Notes under the pieces: generated by a model | Told to the model about the DNA's origin: nothing | Seen by the model: the letters and a program-made list of their open reading frames with translations, nothing else | Database searches by the model: none | Translations under genes and position numbers: made by a program | In this document: positions 22,571 to 32,856 of the stretch, piece by piece | Numbering within the stretch: the first letter of the stretch is position 1 | How the letters are laid out: each line of letters starts with the position of its first letter | Assembly: GCA_026388695.1 (NCBI GenBank) | Contig: JAPLJH010000047.1 | Span: 1-38,657 of the forward strand | Length of the DNA: 38,657 nt | Origin: Deltaproteobacteria bacterium | Lineage (GTDB): Bacteria > Desulfobacterota > Desulfobulbia > Desulfobulbales > Desulfurivibrionaceae | Direction: 5' to 3'

Positions 22571-24541
22571 ATGGCTACTCATTCCAGCATCCCCTTAACC
22601 GTCGGATTAATCCTTGCCCTCGCTTTGCCTGCCCAGGCAGATACCGAACTGGCCGCGTTAAACCTGGAGCAGTTACTCGAAACCACGGTGACCAGCGCCT
22701 CAAAGTACGAACAGAAACAATCCGAGGTGGCCGCCTCGGTCAGCATCATCACCCGCGACGAGATCAAGGCCTTCGGCTGGCGCACCCTGGATCAGGCCCT
22801 GGCCAGCCTGCCCGGCATTCACACCACCTACGACCGGCAATACTCCTACCTGGGCGCCCGGGGTTTCGGCCTGCCCGGAGATTTTAACACCCGGGTGCTG
22901 CTGGCCATCAACGGCAATCGCGTGAATGATTTGGTATACGACAGCGCCGCTTTCGGCCGCGATTTTCCGCTGGATATGGACCTGATCGAGCGCATCGAGT
23001 TCGTTGCCGGGCCGGGCGGCGCGGTCTACGGTCAGAACGCCATGTTCGGGGTGGTCAACGTGATCACCCGCACCGGGGCACAGGTTGACGGGGGCGAGCT
23101 GTCCGCTGGCTGGCAAAGCCCCCAATCGCTGGGGGAAGGACGCATCAGTTGGGGCAAGCTGCTGAACAACGGCGTCGATGTGCTGGTGTCCGCCTCGGGC
23201 ATGCACGCACGGGGCGAGGATCTGCTCATGGACTTTTCGGGCGCTGGCTCCGGGGAGAGCCTTGTGGTCGGCCAGGATGGCGAAAAGGACAAGGAATTTT
23301 TTACCCGTGTCGGCCGCGGCCCCTGGGCCATGGATTTCGCCTACGGCAATCGGCGCAAGGATGACCCCACGGCAGTCTTTTTCTCCGATGCCCCGCCATC
23401 CGGGCAGTATCAGCGCGATGCCTATACGCTGACGCAACTGCATTATCAGGAGAACTTCATCGGCAACTCGCTCAATGTGCTGGGTCGCCTGTTCCTGGGC
23501 CAGCAACGCTATGACGGCCTCTTCACCTACACAGGCGCGCCCAATTACGCCACCGGCGCCAGTAACTGGCGTGGCGGTGAGCTGCGCTCGCTGTACTCGG
23601 GGTTCACCGATCACAAGTTCATGCTGGGGCTGGAATACCAGGACAATGCCCGCATCGACCAGACCAACGATGACCGCACCACCCCTGGCCTGGACACCGA
23701 AATCAAGGATTCTGGATATCGCGCCGGGGTCTATGCCCAGGACGAATGGCGCCTCTGCGACGCCTGGTCGGCCACCCTGGGCCTGCGGATGGACCGCAAC
23801 GATATCACCGGCACCAAACTGAGCCCGCGCGCGGGACTGATCTGGCAAACCACCCCTGCAACCACGCTTAAAGCCCTGTACGGCCAAGCCCATCGCGCCC
23901 CAAATGCCTATGAACGGATCTACGACGATAATGGCGTATCGCAGGTTGCCAATCCCTCTCTCAAGGGCGAAACCATCGACACTCTGGAGCTGGTCATGGA
24001 TCACCGGCTGGCCCGCGATTTCAGCGTGCGCGCCTCGATCTACCAGTGGATCATGCAGGATATCATAACCCTGGGTCTCGACCCGATCAGCGGTCTATCG
24101 CAATACCAGTCCGGCAACAAGATCAAGGCCGACGGGGTGGAGCTGTCCGCCGACAAACGCTGGGACTGGGGCGGTCGCGCCCGCGGCAGTGTGTCGTATC
24201 AGGAGATCGCTTATACCGACGGCACCGATTTGCCCAATGCCCCGCAATGGCTGGGCAAGCTCCTTTTCTCCAGCCCCCTGCCGTGGGAGGGTCTGCGTTT
24301 GGGCTACGAACTCCAGTACGATGCAAGCCGCAAGGCCCTCGATAATTCTTCCCTCGACGGCTACTGGCTTTCCCACCTGACCTTGCTTGCCGACAAGTGG
24401 GTCACGGGGATGGAGGTATCCCTGGGGCTGCGCAATCTGTTCAACCAGCACTACCAGCACCCTGGCGCCGACACCAACTGGCAAACCCGTCTGGATCAAG
24501 ACGGGAGAAGCGCCTGGCTTAAAATGGATTACCGATTCTAA
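22571..24541 (+). CDS. TonB-dependent outer-membrane receptor (first of two)
   Basis: Outer-membrane beta-barrel transporter of 656 residues that imports a ligand using TonB energy. The start at 22571 gives a clear signal peptide (MATHSSIPLTVGLILALALP, cut near AQA). Mature residues open with LEQLLETTVTSASKYEQ, then a plug domain (about 30-150) with VSIITRDEIKAFG, PGIHTTYDRQYS and the typical RIEFVAGPGGAVYGQNAM. The barrel ends in WLKMDYRF, with the C-terminal aromatic residue needed for assembly. No clear TonB box is visible. The ligand is unknown; the type is a short TonB receptor (siderophore, corrinoid or oligomer). The ribosome site is weak. Its stop overlaps the next ATG (TAATG), so it is coupled to a yfiR-like gene. 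Confidence 0.9.
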   Translation: MATHSSIPLTVGLILALALPAQADTELAALNLEQLLETTVTSASKYEQKQSEVAASVSIITRDEIKAFGWRTLDQALASLPGIHTTYDRQYSYLGARGFGLPGDFNTRVLLAINGNRVNDLVYDSAAFGRDFPLDMDLIERIEFVAGPGGAVYGQNAMFGVVNVITRTGAQVDGGELSAGWQSPQSLGEGRISWGKLLNNGVDVLVSASGMHARGEDLLMDFSGAGSGESLVVGQDGEKDKEFFTRVGRGPWAMDFAYGNRRKDDPTAVFFSDAPPSGQYQRDAYTLTQLHYQENFIGNSLNVLGRLFLGQQRYDGLFTYTGAPNYATGASNWRGGELRSLYSGFTDHKFMLGLEYQDNARIDQTNDDRTTPGLDTEIKDSGYRAGVYAQDEWRLCDAWSATLGLRMDRNDITGTKLSPRAGLIWQTTPATTLKALYGQAHRAPNAYERIYDDNGVSQVANPSLKGETIDTLELVMDHRLARDFSVRASIYQWIMQDIITLGLDPISGLSQYQSGNKIKADGVELSADKRWDWGGRARGSVSYQEIAYTDGTDLPNAPQWLGKLLFSSPLPWEGLRLGYELQYDASRKALDNSSLDGYWLSHLTLLADKWVTGMEVSLGLRNLFNQHYQHPGADTNWQTRLDQDGRSAWLKMDYRF

Positions 24542-25107
24542 TGTCTTCCTGTCGCCATCATTTTTCCGGCTGGTTTAAGGCTGGGAGAAAAACAGGGTTT
24601 CGCCTCCTTTTCTGGGTGCTTGGCTTGCTGTGCGGCCCGTCGCTGGCGCACGCCGAGACTCTGGCCGAGTATCAGATCAAGGCGGCCTTCCTGTATAACT
24701 TCCTGGCGTTCACCGAGTGGCCTGCGGAAGTGGGGACCACCATCAATCTGTGCGTCTATGGCCCAGACCCCTTCGGCGAGAACCTGGACAAAATGCAGGG
24801 CAAGAGCCTCGGCGCCCGCAGCCTGGCGGTGAAGCGCATCAACAGCGTGGATGGCTTGCAAAGCTGCCAGGTCGTGTTCATCACCCACCCGGTGATTGGC
24901 AACCTCCGCCGCGTACTCGACAACCTGAGCGATAGGCCGGTGCTGACCGTGGCCGATTCGCAAGACGCCGCGCTCCAAGGCGTCGCCCTCAACATGAGCA
25001 TGGACCAGAACAAGGTGACCTTCGAGGCCAATCTGGCAGCCGCCCGCAGCAATAAAGTGAATCTCAGCTCCAAGCTGCTGCGCCTGGCTACCAAGGTGAT
25101 CCAATAA
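24541..25107 (+). CDS. YfiR-family periplasmic protein (first of two)
   Basis: Exported protein of 188 residues in the YfiR/DUF4154 family. A signal peptide (about 1-40, ending SLAHA) leads to the family core: EYQIKAAFLYNFLAFTEWP, then CVYGPDPFG, GKSLGARSLAVKRI, and C-terminal NLSSKLLRLATKV. In Pseudomonas YfiR binds the periplasmic part of YfiN and represses it; loss or removal activates the receptor. Here the gene overlaps the stop of a TonB receptor, which suggests the protein senses or follows that receptor's state. The disulfide-forming cysteines of Pseudomonas YfiR are not clearly conserved. A second copy follows the second receptor. Confidence 0.88.
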   Translation: MSSCRHHFSGWFKAGRKTGFRLLFWVLGLLCGPSLAHAETLAEYQIKAAFLYNFLAFTEWPAEVGTTINLCVYGPDPFGENLDKMQGKSLGARSLAVKRINSVDGLQSCQVVFITHPVIGNLRRVLDNLSDRPVLTVADSQDAALQGVALNMSMDQNKVTFEANLAAARSNKVNLSSKLLRLATKVIQ

Positions 25108-25151
25108 AACCATCAACGCACATCCCCTTGCGCCGAGCATCTTTCTCCCGC

Positions 25152-25180
25152 TTGCCAGGACTACGGGAAAAGAGTAGAAT
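25152..25180 (+). promoter_or_regulatory. Predicted sigma70 promoter of the second receptor gene
   Basis: TTGCCA (25152-25157), a 17-base gap and TAGAAT (25175-25180), each five of six against consensus. It lies in the 127-base gap after the first yfiR gene, so the second receptor, second yfiR and kinase can be expressed as a separate unit. The -35 region shares CGCTTGCCAG with the first receptor's promoter. Confidence 0.6.
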
Positions 25181-25234
25181 TTTATTATTGCTTCCACAAG
25201 ACATAGCCGCAGAGCCAAAAAGAGAGGTATAGCC

Positions 25235-27325
25235 ATGGCAGCCATCCGCTCACTCCGTAGAAGAAAACGAATTTTATCCCGCACAGCGGTAACCGGTCTT
25301 GCGGCAATCTCCATCCTCATGGTCAGCAGCCAGCCCTGCTGGGCAGCCCGCCCCAATATCACAGCGCTTTCCCTGGAAGAGCTGCTTTCCGTGGAAATCA
25401 CCTCGGTTTCCAAAAAAGCCGAAAAAGCCAGCGATGCGGCAGCCGCCGTTTTTGTGGTCAGCCATGAAGACATCAAACGCTCGGGCGCCACCACCATCCC
25501 TGAGGTGTTGCGCATGGTGCCCGGCCTGCAAGTGGCGCGGATAGACGCCAACAAATGGGCGGTGAGCAGCCGGGGGTTCAACGGCTTTTCCTCCAACAAG
25601 CTGCTGGTGCTCATGGATGGCCGCACCATGTACAACCCGCTTTTTTCCGGGGTCCTCTGGGACACCCAGGACACCATGCTTGATGATATCGAACGCATCG
25701 AGGTGATCCGGGGGCCGGGGGCCAGCCTCTGGGGCGCCAACGCGGTCAACGGGGTGATCAATGTCATTAGCAAACATTCGGCAGACACCCAGGGCGGGCT
25801 GCTCACTGCGGGAACCGGCACCGAGGAACAGGGCTTCGGCTCTGTCCGCTATGGCGCCAAGGTCAATGACCGCACCACCTACCGGGTGTACGGGAAAAAT
25901 TTCTCCCGCAGCGACCTGGAAGCAGCCGACGGCAGCAATGCCAATGACGACTGGCATCAGGCGCGCGGCGGCTTCCGGTTGGACAGCGTCGCCACTCCCG
26001 ATTCCCCCTATTCCTTCACCGTCCAAGGCGATGGATTCAACGGCTATTCAGACGCCACAACGAATATCCCCGACGCAGCAAGCCCGACCCTCTCGACCAA
26101 CATCATCAACCCCAGCAATGTCAGAGGCGGCAATCTCCTGACCCGGTTGACCAAAAAAGAAAGGGACAACTCGGAGATGTCGCTCCAGGCCTATTATGAT
26201 CGGGAGCGAAACAATGACCGGGTTTTGGGCGACGACCGGGGCACGGCGGACATCGAATTCCAGCACCGCTTTCATGCCACGGAGAAGCAGGAGCTTACCT
26301 GGGGCCTGGGTTACCGCTACAGCCACAACACCCTGGAAAACAGCCAGACCATCGCCTTTGCTCCGGCCAGCAGAAGCGATATGCTGTTCAGCGCCTTTGT
26401 CCAAGACGAAATCACCCTGGTCGAAGACCTTTTCCGCCTCACCCTGGGCAGCAAGTTCGAGCACAACGATTACACCGGCTACGAGGTCCAACCCAGCGGT
26501 CGTCTGCTTTATACGCCGCACAAACATCATACTTTCTGGGCCGCAGTGAGCCAGGCGGTGCGGACCCCCTCGCAAGCCGACCGCGATGTCCGGATAAGCA
26601 GTTCTCTTGTCCCCACTAACTTTCTCATCGCCGCTGGCCATCCTTATCCTTTTATGCCTAATGAATTTGCGGAGATTACCATCAGCGGAAACGAAGAATT
26701 TCAGTCCGAAAAACTCACGGCCTACGAAATCGGCTACCGGACCCAGGTTCATGAAAAACTCGCCTTTGACGCCACCGCCTTTTTCAACGACTACAGCCGA
26801 TTGCGGACAATCCCTCTGGCAGGAGGCTCTATCATAACCCCTACTACCAATCCGGCTTATCTCTATCAACTCGACTATAAGGACGGCAATGGCATGGAGG
26901 GCAGCACCTACGGCTTCGAGCTGGTGGCCGACGCCAAACCCCTGGACTGGTGGCGGCTGCAACTGGCCTACACCTTCCTGCGCATGGATTTGCAGGAGTC
27001 CGGTCAGGGGCTTTATGCAGGCGAGGATGCCGAAGGGGAAAGCCCCCGCAACCAGATCTCGCTGCGATCCATGATGAATCTCAGCAACAACGTCACCTTT
27101 GATACCTGGCTGCGGTATGTGGATAATCTGCCGACCTATGGCATCGACAGCTATGTCGCGTTCGACGCCCGGATCGGCTGGCAGGTCAACCCCGCGCTGG
27201 AACTCTCCCTGGTGGGCCGCAACCTGTTGGATAATGCCCAGCCCGAGTTCGGCTCTTTGTACATCAACATCATCCCCTCGGAAATTCCGCGCAGCGTCTA
27301 TGCGCAAGTACGCATGACTTTCTAG
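25235..27325 (+). CDS. TonB-dependent outer-membrane receptor (second of two)
   Basis: Outer-membrane receptor of 696 residues. The signal peptide (about 1-38, basic start MAAIRSLRRRKRI, ending PCWAA) leads to LSLEELLSVEITSVSKKAE, then a plug with VPGLQVARIDANKWAVSSRG, LVLMDGRTMYNPL and RIEVIRGPGASLWGANA. The barrel ends YAQVRMTF, with a final aromatic. It resembles the group of TonB receptors with SVSKK near the N-terminus, common in Desulfobacterota and Gammaproteobacteria, whose ligands are mostly unknown. It shares only short motifs with the first receptor, so the two are paralogues rather than a recent duplication. The stop is nine bases before a second yfiR-like gene. AGAGAGG precedes the ATG. 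Confidence 0.93.
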   Translation: MAAIRSLRRRKRILSRTAVTGLAAISILMVSSQPCWAARPNITALSLEELLSVEITSVSKKAEKASDAAAAVFVVSHEDIKRSGATTIPEVLRMVPGLQVARIDANKWAVSSRGFNGFSSNKLLVLMDGRTMYNPLFSGVLWDTQDTMLDDIERIEVIRGPGASLWGANAVNGVINVISKHSADTQGGLLTAGTGTEEQGFGSVRYGAKVNDRTTYRVYGKNFSRSDLEAADGSNANDDWHQARGGFRLDSVATPDSPYSFTVQGDGFNGYSDATTNIPDAASPTLSTNIINPSNVRGGNLLTRLTKKERDNSEMSLQAYYDRERNNDRVLGDDRGTADIEFQHRFHATEKQELTWGLGYRYSHNTLENSQTIAFAPASRSDMLFSAFVQDEITLVEDLFRLTLGSKFEHNDYTGYEVQPSGRLLYTPHKHHTFWAAVSQAVRTPSQADRDVRISSSLVPTNFLIAAGHPYPFMPNEFAEITISGNEEFQSEKLTAYEIGYRTQVHEKLAFDATAFFNDYSRLRTIPLAGGSIITPTTNPAYLYQLDYKDGNGMEGSTYGFELVADAKPLDWWRLQLAYTFLRMDLQESGQGLYAGEDAEGESPRNQISLRSMMNLSNNVTFDTWLRYVDNLPTYGIDSYVAFDARIGWQVNPALELSLVGRNLLDNAQPEFGSLYINIIPSEIPRSVYAQVRMTF

Positions 27326-27334
27326 GCAAGGTCC

Positions 27335-28009
27335 ATGACGACTGGTATTTCAGAGAGACAGACAAGCCCCGGCAGCACGCGCCTCTTCGCAGTGTTCGCC
27401 TTCCTGTGCCTCCTGTGCCTGCCTTTCGGCAAAGCATATGGGGCGGACTATGAAGAGTACGAACTCAAGGCTGGCTTTCTCTACAATTTTTTCAATTTCA
27501 TCAAGTGGCCGGACCGCTCTTTTGATGCCCCAAACAGCCCGTTTATCCTGGTTATTGTCGGCGGCGGTGGCAAAGAACGCGCCATCGAACATGCCTTACA
27601 GAACAGCGTTATCGGCGCCCGATCCTTGAAAGTTATCATGACCAACTCCGTCGAGGATCTTGGCAAGGCACACATGGTTTTTTTCCTGGAGTCCTATAAA
27701 AATGCCGACCTGCCGAGGGTGCTGGCCCAACTCAAAGGAAAACCGGTGATCACCGTGGGTGAGGAGAAAAACTTCATCACCCTGGGCGGCGATATCAACT
27801 TTGTGCAAAAGGGAGCGAAGATCAAGTTTCAGATCAATCCAGGCTCAACGGAAAAGGCCGATCTCAAGATCAGCTCGCGGCTGCTTATGCTGGCCGTTGC
27901 CCCGGAGCAGTCGGCAATGGAGTACGACAAGCCTATTCGCGCCAACGGCCCCAATGCCATAACCTCGCGCCTGCGCCAGGAAACACCAGGGGAACATGGA
28001 ATACTTTAA
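27335..28009 (+). CDS. YfiR-family periplasmic protein (second of two)
   Basis: Exported protein of 224 residues with a signal peptide (about 1-36, ending KAYGA) and the YfiR core: [18 protein letters not shown], then [27 protein letters not shown], and C-terminal [12 protein letters not shown]. It is longer than the first copy by a charged, proline-rich tail (about 195-224). It follows the second TonB receptor by nine bases, and its last 14 bases overlap the start of the CHASE8 kinase gene. That overlap ties YfiR to a receptor of the kind it is known to control (YfiN). It is likely the periplasmic regulator of the kinase. Confidence 0.9.
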
Positions 28010-30344
28010 CGCGCTTCCCATCAGGAAAAAACTCCTGCTGATAATCATGCTCGTGACCGGCGGCGTGCTGTTTTTTGTCAATAGCGTTATGTTTGCCTAC
28101 GATTTCTACACCTTCAGACGTATCCTGGCAAAAAATCTGGCCGTACTGACCAAGGCCGTGGCCGAAAACGCATCCTCCGCCGTGGTTTTTTCCGACCCGG
28201 ACGCCGCCACGGAAACCCTGCTGGCCCTTCACGCCGAACCCCGCATCCAGTACGCCGCGATCCTCACCCCAGACCAGCGAATCTTTGCCACCTATGGCGC
28301 GGGTGCAAACGGTTTTCGGCCGCTGCCCATCCCCCACAACACCCCGGTCTTTGGCGAAAACTCCGTCGATTTCCTCACCGAAATAAAACTCCAGGGCAAA
28401 ACCGTGGGCCTGGTCTTTGCCCGCTCCGATCTCCACGACGAACAGGTTCTGATCAAACGCTATCTCCTGGTGGCCCTTGTGGTTATGGGCACAACCTTTT
28501 TTCTCGTCTGGCTCATCACGGGAAAACTCCAGCGGATTTTTACCCGACCCATCGAACAGCTTGCCACAACCATTCGCGGGGTGACGCGGGATCAGGATTA
28601 TTCCTTGCGGGCCTCGGTGAAAAACAAGGACGAGATCGGCGCGCTGACCATGGGCTTTAATGAAATGCTCAATGAAATTGAACTCCGGGATCAGGCCCTT
28701 ACCCAGGCGCACAGCGGCCTTGAAAAAAAGGTCGCGGAGCGAACCCACGATCTTGTTCTAGCCAAGGAGGCGGCAGAAGCAGCCAGCCAAGCCAAGAGCG
28801 AATTTCTGGCCAACATGAGCCATGAAATCCGCACCCCCATGAACGGGGTCATCGGCATGACCCAACTGGCCCTGCAAACCGCACTGGACGAAGAACAACG
28901 GGATTATCTCGAAACCATCGACCTTTCCGCCAATCGCCTCATCCAGGTCATCAACGATATCCTCGATTTTTCCAAGATCGAGGCGCACAAGCTGGACATC
29001 ACCGCCAGCGACTTCAATCTGCGGGAAACCATCGAGGATACCACCCAAGAGCTGGCGGTTCGGGCGCAGGAAAAAAGGCTGGAGCTGTTGTGTCATATCG
29101 AGCCGGATGTCCCGGAGTTTCTCATTGGCGACGGCTTTCGCCTCCAGCAGATTTTGACCAACCTGCTGGGCAACAGCATTAAATTCACCGAAGCCGGCCA
29201 GATCTTCCTGAACGTCCAGCGCAAAGGGGAGTACGATGGGGCCGTTGAACTGCTGTTTTCCGTTGCCGACAAAGGCATCGGCATCCCCGAAGACAAGCAG
29301 CAAACGATCTTTGAGGCCTTCAGTCAGGTGGACAGCTCCATGGCCAGAAAATTCGGCGGCACCGGCCTGGGGCTCTCCATTTCCTCCCGCCTTGTCCATC
29401 TCATGGGAGGCCGCATCTGGCTGGAAAGCACTCCCAATGTCGGCTCCACCTTTTTCTTCACCATCCTCTGCCAAAAACAGTCCGGGGAACACGTCGTGCC
29501 GCAGGAATCTCCGGCCTTTCTCGCGGGAAAATCCGTTTTGGTTGTGGACGATAACCCCATCAACCAAAAAATCCTGCTGCAAAAACTTGCCCAGCTTGGC
29601 ATGCAGGCGCAGGCTGTTTCCGGCGGAGCAGACGCGCTGGAGGCCTTGCAGGACCGCCTTGATGTCGCAGCGCCCTTTGCCCTGGCCATTATCGATATCC
29701 AGATGCCGGAAATGGACGGCTTCACCCTGATTGAAAAAATTCGGCAACGCCCTGGCCTGACCCAAATGCCGGTGATTGTTCTCACCTCCGCAGGTCTGCC
29801 GGAAGACAAGGAAAGAAGCATGAGCCTCGGGGTGCACGCCTATTTGCTCAAACCCTGTCGCCATAAGGATCTGCTCCGGAGTATCTCCACGGTTTTTGTA
29901 CAACCGGAACCGACCGGGGCGCCAAGCGAAAAGCCACAGGCGGAAAAGAAAGAACGACTCCACATCCTGCTGGCGGAAGACAATCTCGTAAACCAGAAAG
30001 TGGCGCAAAAACTGCTGGAGCGAGAGGGGCACTCCGTGGTGATCGCCAATAACGGCCGGGAAGCCGTGGAAAAATACGGGGCCGAACATTTCGACCTGAT
30101 CCTGATGGATGTGCAGATGCCGGAAATGGACGGCTTTGAGGCAACCGCAGAAATCCGCGCCCAAGAAGAGGGAACAGCCAGACACATCCCGATCATCGCC
30201 TTAACCGCCCATGCCATGAAAGGCTATAGCGAGCAATGCCTGACCGCAGGCATGGACGGCTATGTCTCCAAGCCCTTCACCATCAAAACTCTTGTGGAGC
30301 GGTTAGATTCCCTTGCTTTTCCCGAGCTCGGGAACAACGCCTGA
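27996..30344 (+). CDS. CHASE8-HAMP hybrid sensor histidine kinase with two receiver domains
   Basis: Membrane kinase of 782 residues. Two helices (about 14-34 and 152-172) bracket a periplasmic CHASE8-like sensor (about 36-150) with [20 protein letters not shown], the type YfiR controls in YfiN. HAMP (about 173-226) and a coiled coil lead to the HisKA domain with His276 ([12 protein letters not shown]), then an ATPase domain with [11 protein letters not shown]. Receiver 1 has Asp567 ([11 protein letters not shown]) and receiver 2 Asp705 ([11 protein letters not shown]). There is no HPt or DNA-binding domain, so phosphate must leave to another protein. It overlaps the second yfiR by 14 bases. 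In YfiN the output is a diguanylate cyclase; here it is a phosphorelay. Confidence 0.9.
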
Positions 30345-30471: not shown

Positions 30472-32856
30472 ATGAGCAAAGCGCCTCCCCTTAAACCAGC
30501 CGCCAACAGCCTTCCTCTCTCCATCGATATCCTTGAAATCGTGACCAGTCACATCGGGGCCGGACTCGCCGTCATCTCCCGCGACTTTACAACCCTCTGG
30601 GCCAACAAGGTCATGGAAGATATCTACGGCGACACCATAGGCAAGGCCTGCTACCAAACCTATCAGCAGCAGGAAGGCGTCTGCCCCTGGTGCGGGGTCC
30701 GAGAGGTTTTTGAGCAGGGTCTGGAACGGGTAGCCAGGGAGGTAGCGAGCCGTAATAAAAACGGCGACCTTATCAATCTCGAGATCATCGCCACCCCGAT
30801 CCGCGACGCACAAGGGAACATCACCGCAGCCCTGGAGCTGGTCCTGCCGATAACCGAGCGGAAACAGCACGAAAAGATTCTGACCGAGTTGCTCGCCTTC
30901 TCGCAAAGCCTGGTCAGCACCGTTGAGCTGAACAGCCTGTACCGAAAGGTCACCAGCCTTTCAAAAGAATTGCTCCGTCTTGATTTCTCCACCCTGATGC
31001 TGATGAGCGATGACCAGAGCGGTCTGGTTATCCGCGACACCCTGGGGTTTCCGGAGCAGACCATCGGCCATTATACCCTGCTCAAGGGCCAGGGCCTCTC
31101 CAACCATGTGGTGCTTACAAAAGAACCTGCAGTGGTGGCCGATTTCCAGACGGAAACCCGGTTTGAGATTCCATCCCTGGTTGTGGAAAAAAATATCCGC
31201 TCCGCGCTTTGCGTGCCCATGATGCTGGGTGAAAATGTCTTTGGGGTGTTGATCGGCCATACGCTGAAGCCCCGGGTATTCAGCGAAGAGATGATCAGCA
31301 TCTATCAAAGCTTTGCCAACCAGGCGGCGATAGCGATCAAGAACGCCCAGCACATGCACTCCCTGCATGCCTCGGAAAAAAAATTCCGCACCCTGTTTGA
31401 CAACACCAACGATGCTATCCTTATCTATGCCTTAAACGGGCGGCTCCTTGAGGTGAACCACGCCACCTGCAAACGCCTGGGTTACTCGCGGGAAGAACTC
31501 CTCGCGATGCCTCTCTCCCAGCTCGTTGCCCCCCCCTATACCGCCCTGGTCAAAGACCGCATCGAGCTACTGAAAAAGGACGGCACGGCCATCTTTGAGT
31601 CCGCCCATCGCAAAAAAGATGGCTCCATTCTCCCCATTGAGCAGAGCTGTAGCCTCATCGATTATGACACGCAAACGGCAATCCTCTGCGTGGCTCGAGA
31701 TATCTCGGAGCGGAAAAAGTTTGACGAGGAACGCCTCCGAACCCAGAAGCTGGAATCCCTCGGGGTTTTGGCCGGGGGTATTGCCCACGACTTCAACAAT
31801 CTGCTCACCGGCATCCTTGGCAATCTCTCCCTGGCCCAGGCAGACCTGCCAGCCACCGGCACGGTGTCCCAGCGACTGATCGAGACGGAAAAGGCCGCCC
31901 TCCGCGCCAGGGAGCTGACCCAGCAACTGCTCACCTTTGCCAAGGGCGGAGCGCCCGTTAAGACAGAAACCTCCCTGGCCGGGCTCATCCAGGATGCCAC
32001 CGGTTTTGCCGTCCGCGGCACCAAAGCGGTGTGCGAATACGATTGCGCCGAAGATCTCTGGCTGGCCGAGGTGGACAAGGGCCAGTTGGGCCAGGTTTTA
32101 CAGAATCTGGTGATCAACGCGGTCCATGCCATGCCCGAGGGGGGCGCCATCCGCCTTACGGCCAGCAACCTCACCGTCGGCCCCGGCAAGCTGCCCCTGA
32201 CGCCGGGCAAATATGTGCTGATCACCGTTCGGGATCATGGCCTCGGCATTCCGCCGGAACATCTGGCCAGGATCTTTGATCCCTATTTCACCACCAAGCA
32301 GAGCGGCAGCGGCCTGGGATTGGCGGTGGTCTATTCCATCATCGCCAACCATGCGGGCCACATCACCGTGGAGTCGGAACTGGGCAAGGGCACGGCCTTT
32401 TCCATCTATCTCCCTTCCACCGGAAAATCGCCCCTGGCGGAAGAGCCCGCCGAAGTAACGGCCCCGTTGCACAAAGGCCAGGGCAAGGTTCTGGTAATGG
32501 ATGACGAAGAACTCATCCGCAATGTTTCCACCGCCATGCTCAGGCAGCTGGGCTATGAGGCCCACACCGCCAATGACGGCGAAGAAGCCATTACCCGCTA
32601 CCTCCAGGCCCAAAAGGACGGACAGCCCTTTGACCTGGTAATCATGGATCTCACCGTGCCCGGCGGCATGGGAGGCAAGGAGGCCATTGCCCACCTCCGC
32701 CAGCTTGACCCCCAGATAAAAGCCGTGGTCTCCAGCGGATACGCCAACGACCCGATCATGGCCAATTTCAGCAAATACGGCTTTTGCGGGGTTGCGCCCA
32801 AGCCTTTCGGCCTCCAAGAGCTCTCTGAGTTATTGCAAATGATTTTAGGTGGTTAG
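30472..32856 (+). CDS. Soluble PAS-GAF-PAS hybrid histidine kinase with one receiver domain
   Basis: Cytoplasmic kinase of 794 residues, no membrane helix. Order: PAS (about 15-130) with a Cys pair in GVCPWCGVREVF that could bind metal or sense redox; GAF (about 145-300); PAS (about 303-420); HisKA with GVLAGGIAHDFNNLLTG; ATPase with DPYFTTKQSGSGLGLAVVYS; receiver (about 672-790) with the phospho-Asp in IMDLTVPGGMGG. It starts 127 bases after the CHASE8 kinase and may be on its transcript. It could accept or feed phosphate with that kinase, though this is only suggested by position. The ribosome site is weak (GCGAGG). Confidence 0.88.
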   Translation: MSKAPPLKPAANSLPLSIDILEIVTSHIGAGLAVISRDFTTLWANKVMEDIYGDTIGKACYQTYQQQEGVCPWCGVREVFEQGLERVAREVASRNKNGDLINLEIIATPIRDAQGNITAALELVLPITERKQHEKILTELLAFSQSLVSTVELNSLYRKVTSLSKELLRLDFSTLMLMSDDQSGLVIRDTLGFPEQTIGHYTLLKGQGLSNHVVLTKEPAVVADFQTETRFEIPSLVVEKNIRSALCVPMMLGENVFGVLIGHTLKPRVFSEEMISIYQSFANQAAIAIKNAQHMHSLHASEKKFRTLFDNTNDAILIYALNGRLLEVNHATCKRLGYSREELLAMPLSQLVAPPYTALVKDRIELLKKDGTAIFESAHRKKDGSILPIEQSCSLIDYDTQTAILCVARDISERKKFDEERLRTQKLESLGVLAGGIAHDFNNLLTGILGNLSLAQADLPATGTVSQRLIETEKAALRARELTQQLLTFAKGGAPVKTETSLAGLIQDATGFAVRGTKAVCEYDCAEDLWLAEVDKGQLGQVLQNLVINAVHAMPEGGAIRLTASNLTVGPGKLPLTPGKYVLITVRDHGLGIPPEHLARIFDPYFTTKQSGSGLGLAVVYSIIANHAGHITVESELGKGTAFSIYLPSTGKSPLAEEPAEVTAPLHKGQGKVLVMDDEELIRNVSTAMLRQLGYEAHTANDGEEAITRYLQAQKDGQPFDLVIMDLTVPGGMGGKEAIAHLRQLDPQIKAVVSSGYANDPIMANFSKYGFCGVAPKPFGLQELSELLQMILGG

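Follow-up and report, generated by a model that had tools for sequence, protein, structure and literature searches.

Here we describe a recurrent gene module in which an outer-membrane receptor, a periplasmic YfiR-like protein and a CHASE8 hybrid kinase are encoded side by side. The receptor probably controls binding of YfiR to the kinase, and YfiR would thereby probably restrain the kinase. We examined the module in a 38,657 nucleotide stretch of DNA from a Deltaproteobacteria bacterium of the family Desulfurivibrionaceae (assembly GCA_026388695.1, contig JAPLJH010000047.1). This whole stretch is hereafter called the window. The gene order recurs in many genomes, and YfiR and CHASE8 have diverged together. 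Note that the source assembly, of 2.58 Mb in 114 contigs, is 87% complete. Close protein relatives carry the names Desulfurivibrionaceae and Thiovibrio frasassiensis. The genes in question are as follows.

22571..24541, + strand: TBDR1, a TonB-family outer-membrane receptor of 656 amino acids (ATG at 22571, TAA at 24541), with the segment LNLEQLLETTVTSASK ahead of the plug
24541..25107, + strand: YfiR1, a DUF4154 protein of 188 amino acids with a signal-peptide-like N-terminus and, by eye, both cysteines of the redox pair
25235..27325, + strand: TBDR2, an outer-membrane receptor of 696 amino acids that passes the cut-off of NCBIfam NF053590, with LSLEELLSVEITSVSK at residues 45-60
27335..28009, + strand: YfiR2, a DUF4154 protein of 224 amino acids, the mature part of which has no cysteine (by eye)
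27996..30344, + strand: a CHASE8-HAMP-HisKA-HATPase-REC-REC hybrid kinase of 782 amino acids, with a periplasmic sensor at approximately residues 36-150

At the junctions, yfiR1 begins within the TBDR1 stop codon (TAATG, 24539-24543), nine bases separate TBDR2 from yfiR2, and yfiR2 overlaps the kinase gene by 14 bases. A preliminary description of the window, made from the sequence alone, had proposed the two receptor/yfiR pairs and the kinase overlap. Its coordinates and junctions were exact to the base, and Pfam confirmed the domains. Plug and TonB barrel matches were found for TBDR1 (1.5e-18 and 1.1e-39) and TBDR2 (1.9e-21 and 7.4e-25), and DUF4154 matches for YfiR1 and YfiR2 (4.0e-43 and 2.9e-35). 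The kinase matches CHASE8 (9.7e-15), HAMP (7.4e-08), HisKA, HATPase and, in two stretches, Response_reg; no Hpt or GGDEF match was found by the same scan. The Pfam match upholds the earlier assignment of the kinase sensor domain as CHASE8, and its predicted fold is PAS-like. Across the whole assembly, searches found two Plug receptors, two DUF4154 proteins and one CHASE8 protein. All five are within this cluster.

Recurrent linkage of receptor, yfiR and CHASE8 kinase across genomes had been set beforehand as a test, and such linkage was found in many phyla. Of 58 relatives, counting G000, 28 have DUF4154; in a phylum sample the figure is 46 of 297 genomes. CHASE8 is above cut-off in 30 of the 58 relatives, among them all 28 with DUF4154. 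Furthermore, 35 of 38 over-cut-off CHASE8 places adjoin a DUF4154 place (two lists compared by eye, three weaker matches being excluded). The three exceptions (L249-L251) encode CHASE8 hybrid kinases, and the 14 kb around each contain nothing that matches YfiR. In L249, a 228 amino acid gene without a Pfam match is upstream, at the usual yfiR position.

Gene neighbourhoods were sampled as stretches of up to 17.5 kb round matches, and a scan of genome contigs contributed 80 named loci. Note that only the best 80 of 549 relatives were retained there, so that this sample leans toward kin of the query, while the genome and plasmid samples do not. The YfiR, receptor, CHASE8 and kinase genes were called with profiles built from the window's own proteins rather than with Pfam, and reading frames were called mechanically. 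Outside the window, counting by domain coordinates gave 177 distinct YfiR genes; 31 were dropped for short flanks and 146 remained. A receptor is directly upstream on the same strand in 120 cases, and nearby in 135. Similarly, CHASE8 is directly downstream in 132 cases and nearby in 136. Both are near YfiR in 125 of the 146, neither in 0, and the strict order receptor-yfiR-CHASE8 applies to 109. The nearest CHASE8 protein has a kinase output in 127 cases, GGDEF in 3 and another output in 5; one is cut by a contig end and 10 YfiR genes have no CHASE8. Four of these 10 are a fusion, L122, described below, and L123, L124 and L126, where a kinase is present with no recognised CHASE8. In 87 of 92 modules, preselected for closeness, the kinase start overlaps yfiR or is within 30 nucleotides. 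Titles of the named loci include Acidobacteria, Gemmatimonadetes, Verrucomicrobia, Nitrospirae, Betaproteobacteria, Planctomycetota and KSB1, and most are metagenome-assembled. A first neighbour count (137 genes: receptor 124, CHASE8 121, both 108, neither 0) was discarded; it missed kinases with over-long frames overlapping yfiR.

Plasmids provided an independent replicate. In 72,556 plasmid records, the YfiR query matches 8, and a separate TBDR2 query matches 6, all among those 8. Each of the 8 is a receptor-YfiR-CHASE8 locus. Three alphaproteobacterial loci (Sphingobium twice, Indioceanicola) have kinase outputs, and five (Paraburkholderia, Caballeronia and three Pseudoalteromonas) have GGDEF-EAL; five of these loci were analysed with Pfam, and the other three were read with our own profiles and patterns. 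Since all eight plasmids carry the triplet, with mixed outputs, receptor and YfiR are the constant part and the output varies. Separately, in two Pseudoalteromonas plasmids (L260 and L261) the module receptor gene is in pieces, and L260 has an IS30 transposase gene between receptor and yfiR.

Next to gene order, we compared pairwise divergence of YfiR, CHASE8, the kinase catalytic core, plug and barrel in 92 complete modules, the window's included (a mirror-tree analysis). Divergence of YfiR correlates with that of CHASE8 (rank r 0.54); none of 1000 permutations reached this value, the highest being 0.21. For CHASE8 and the catalytic core of its own polypeptide the correlation is 0.05 (reached by 136 of 1000 permutations), and for YfiR and the kinase core 0.01 (409 of 1000). 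Because shared operon history is expected to raise all three correlations, YfiR and CHASE8 are taken as a single unit with an exchangeable catalytic core. The YfiR-CHASE8 correlation persists at 0.39 after thinning to 32 sequences, and is found within both main core clades (0.57, n=63; 0.52, n=28).

YfiR domains also occur in other arrangements. L122 encodes a single protein that comprises YfiR, a stretch resembling a coiled coil and a probable membrane helix (these two judged by eye), as well as HisKA, HATPase and REC. With the YfiR part as query, 17 protein clusters were returned, of which 16 combine DUF4154 with HisKA and HATPase. In the other (P0059, 564 amino acids), DUF4154 is linked to a SpoIIE phosphatase domain, which adds one more output to those of YfiR domains. 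An apparent receptor-YfiR fusion, in L151, was rejected; it reads as a frameshift, with a barrel piece in another frame. Receptor-YfiR pairs can also stand apart from the kinase. In L042, no CHASE8 gene is nearby. In genome G007, which has one CHASE8 match, a pair like TBDR1-YfiR1 is approximately 95 kb from a receptor-YfiR-kinase set.

The module receptors have a common segment between signal peptide and plug, with the consensus DLTxLSLEELMxxEVTSVSK. Leu50 of TBDR2, within it, is invariant across 41 aligned receptors. Using patterns of our own, composed after the sequences were inspected, we found LxLEEL...VTSVSK in 109 of 128 module receptors versus 1 of 33 others, and a TonB box in 0 of the 128 (the two from the window among them) versus 20 of 33 others. 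The single non-module receptor with the segment (L220) is also beside a kinase. For TBDR2, AlphaFold predicts a plugged barrel with a mean predicted local distance difference test score (pLDDT) of 87.4.

Neither TonB_C nor TIGR01352 was matched in the source assembly, which is 87% complete, and its sole ExbD is at a contig end, paired in a TolQR-like way (TolQ named by eye). Because no TonB_C was found, and ExbD is in such a pair, active import is doubtful in this genome, though with the caveat that the assembly is incomplete and the contig ends at that point. Lack of TonB was considered as a hallmark of the module, and rejected. TonB_C above cut-off is missing in 11 of 28 genomes with YfiR versus 6 of 30 without, which is suggestive only, and G029 and G050 have receptors yet no YfiR and no TonB_C. 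Given the 6 of 30, TonB independence is conjecture. TIGR01352 matches are above cut-off in G027, G037, G056, G029, G050, G025 and G057, and below it in G018 and G021. In G027, G037, G056, G029, G050, G018 and G021, the ones of these that were also searched for ExbD, the match follows the sole ExbD by approximately 0.7-0.85 kb; these matches are read, by position alone, as TolA. Loci L209-L215, fetched for the TonB/TolA question, were annotated with our own profiles only.

How might such a module work? In Pseudomonas aeruginosa, YfiR represses the CHASE8-type protein YfiN, and outer-membrane YfiB captures YfiR; YfiR contacts YfiB via strand β7 and a hydrophobic pocket (as described in passages of PMC4655355). 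We propose that the module follows this logic, with the receptor standing in for YfiB and a phosphorelay for cyclic di-GMP; the direction of the kinase response, the ligand and the receptor contact are all inferred. By analogy with YfiBNR, free YfiR would dock on the PAS-like CHASE8 domain and lock the kinase in one state. Ligand binding would then alter the periplasmic face of the receptor, so that YfiR is captured or released, which in Pseudomonas is the job of YfiB. The LxLEEL...VTSVSK segment, before the plug, is the predicted docking element for the hydrophobic pocket of YfiR. Two receptor-YfiR inputs would converge on one CHASE8 kinase in this genome, and likewise in G007. Because no Hpt was found in the kinase, the phosphoryl group is proposed to leave via an unlinked Hpt protein. 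The output half is swappable, consisting of kinases from either of the two main catalytic clades, or of GGDEF-EAL.

Several observations weigh against receptor control of YfiR. Divergence of receptor and YfiR correlates weakly (barrel 0.19, reached by 2 of 1000 permutations; plug 0.15, 16 of 1000), and no more strongly than that of receptor and CHASE8 (barrel 0.19, plug 0.16). The partial correlation of receptor and YfiR is almost gone (0.00-0.06). Within the clade of 28, the receptor-YfiR values are higher (0.35 and 0.48). Gaussian coupling analysis of 151 pairs gave an inter-domain signal no higher than that in 20 shuffled pairings. Of the YfiR-CHASE8 co-variation that the preliminary description suggested comparing, joint divergence was supported and residue covariation was not. 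No receptor is near 11 of the 146 YfiR genes, and no CHASE8 near 10. The TBDR2 segment itself, predicted as a short helix and strand, has a pLDDT of 55-74 by block, and could be a variant TonB box instead of a dock for YfiR. TOL_0244 and OmpS, the alkane-linked receptors discussed below, are treated as transporters too; transport is named for OmpS in passages of PMC7284936, and is also proposed in those of PMC6304351. In passages of the cited literature, we met no measurement of the sign of YfiR action on any kinase.

Some of these observations fit a different scheme, which we consider unlikely. Here, YfiR controls the CHASE8 kinase but itself senses the periplasm (its redox state, the condition of the cell wall or a ligand), and the receptor is only a co-regulated uptake gene switched on by the kinase. 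In favour of this are the mirror-tree signals, which are strong between YfiR and CHASE8 but weak where the receptor is concerned, and the 11 YfiR genes with CHASE8 and no receptor near. Redox sensing by YfiR, independent of YfiB, is also described in passages of PMC3375315. However, a receptor is near 135 of the 146 YfiR genes, module receptors have their unusual N-terminal segment in common, and receptor-YfiR pairs occur without a nearby CHASE8 gene, as in L042. The mature part of YfiR2 has no cysteine by eye and, in 151 CHASE8-paired YfiR proteins, both cysteines are conserved in 51, only the second in 73, only the first in 2 and neither in 25. Redox control by the cysteine pair can therefore not be general.

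Two further explanations have less to commend them. It is improbable that the receptor imports a ligand which YfiR, half a substrate-binding-protein fold, carries to CHASE8, as LuxP does to LuxQ; the missing TonB_C and the TolQR-like setting of the sole ExbD argue against this, though the assembly is 87% complete and the contig ends there. That the genes are adjacent for operon convenience, with no signalling link, is very improbable indeed. Kinases do occur within two genes in 5 of 32 non-module receptor loci, hand-picked from among the matches listed, and this speaks for such a reading. Set against it are the cross-phylum linkage with strict order in 109 of 146, the plasmid replicate (8 of 8), the fusions and the joint divergence of YfiR and CHASE8. 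We favour receptor control of YfiR as the likely reading. A wider claim is possible but doubtful. Receptors of this class may be dedicated surface sensors, not importers, the TonB box having been exchanged for a YfiR-docking segment. They might then be the general outer-membrane input of YfiR-CHASE8 switches across bacteria. In this view YfiB would have taken their place later in Pseudomonas, and phosphorelay and cyclic di-GMP would be freely interchangeable as outputs.

The next gene in the window encodes a second kinase.

30472..32856, + strand: a PAS-GAF-PAS-HisKA-HATPase-REC kinase (Pfam), possibly an accessory and not a defined part of the module

A similar gene is downstream of the module in the same-genus loci L045, L052, L053 and L056. 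Further along, between 33100 and 37767, are a radical-SAM lysine-aminomutase-like gene, a gene without a Pfam match, two D-Ala-D-Ala-ligase-like ATP-grasp genes and a GNAT gene, which could be a beta-lysine or small-peptide cluster. Elsewhere, a parallel layout (L219/L254, L222, L244, L246 and L253) comprises a TonB-family receptor, a substrate-binding-like protein of approximately 330 amino acids and a kinase. This protein is PF04392 in L254 and L222, the two that were Pfam-scanned, and the N-terminal regions of the kinases are weakly CHASE8-like or other. YfiR is itself reportedly similar to one lobe of ABC-type binding proteins.

Receptor state is reported across the envelope by FecA-FecR-sigma systems. 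The preliminary description had held the present route to be distinct from these. Consistent with this, Pfam found no FecA-type signalling domain in either window receptor, and no FecR or sigma match in the six genes scanned. In LuxP-LuxQ, the target of the periplasmic protein is a hybrid kinase with a PAS-like sensor, and the kinase sensor here is PAS-like by fold match. LuxP, however, is a full two-lobed binding protein, and LuxP-LuxQ is not known to include an outer-membrane receptor gene. Compared with canonical TonB-dependent transporters, plug and beta-barrel are present here, but a TonB box recognisable by our pattern is not. The well-known routes by which receptor state passes inward are FecR/sigma and the SusC-linked hybrid kinases of Bacteroides. 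If our reading is true, the receptor-YfiR-CHASE8 relay would add a third route that occurs in many phyla and combines a single interchangeable input half with several different output halves. Many bacteria would thus have a little-studied way to report cell-surface events inward.

That the system was possibly new, as initially suggested, is too strong for its YfiR-CHASE8-kinase half. Malone 2012 describes YfiR-YfiN[PAS] cores with kinases replacing GGDEF, and two YfiR proteins with one hybrid kinase in Thauera (passages of PMC3375315). Furthermore, NCBIfam 20.0 has models for the same three protein kinds, with names that carry no mechanism: NF053590 (TOL_0244 receptor), NF053591 (TOL_0243 YfiR-like) and NF053592 (YfiR-like protein-associated kinase). 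TBDR2 passes the NF053590 cut-off of 645 (693.1) and TBDR1 fails (152.9). YfiR1 (119.8) and YfiR2 (117.3) are below the NF053591 cut-off of 125, though this is still the best family for both, and the kinase (171) is under the NF053592 cut-off of 194. What has been little described is the role of the receptor as outer-membrane input. No receptor-YfiR-kinase relay is described in the titles and abstracts searched, where subscription literature is poorly covered, or in passages of the cited papers. No word starting TonB occurs in the main text of PMC3375315, by word search. The relay, if true, would give a handle on alkane-linked receptors of the TOL_0244 and OmpS kind. According to passages of PMC6304351, TOL_0244 has 40.3% similarity to OmpS, and rises sevenfold on n-C28 alkane relative to Tween 80. 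OmpS, a TonB-family receptor of Alcanivorax dieselolei, is called the essential alkane sensor that triggers chemotaxis (passages of PMC9788540; similarly PMC5174103).

YfiBNR of P. aeruginosa and HmsCDE are among the nearest known systems. In each, a DUF4154 periplasmic protein adjoins a membrane protein that has HAMP and a CHASE8/PAS-like sensor, and there is an outer-membrane partner. Those systems act through cyclic di-GMP, whereas here a hybrid kinase provides the output, and in place of the lipoprotein YfiB a TonB-family receptor is encoded for the outer membrane. The YfiB-type OmpA family had no match among the six genes scanned, the rest of the assembly not being searched for it. Almost all divergent Yfi operons are without yfiB (passages of PMC3375315). 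Compared with those cores, the receptor here would supply the missing outer-membrane part and, if so, the relay would tell what replaces YfiB in divergent Yfi systems.
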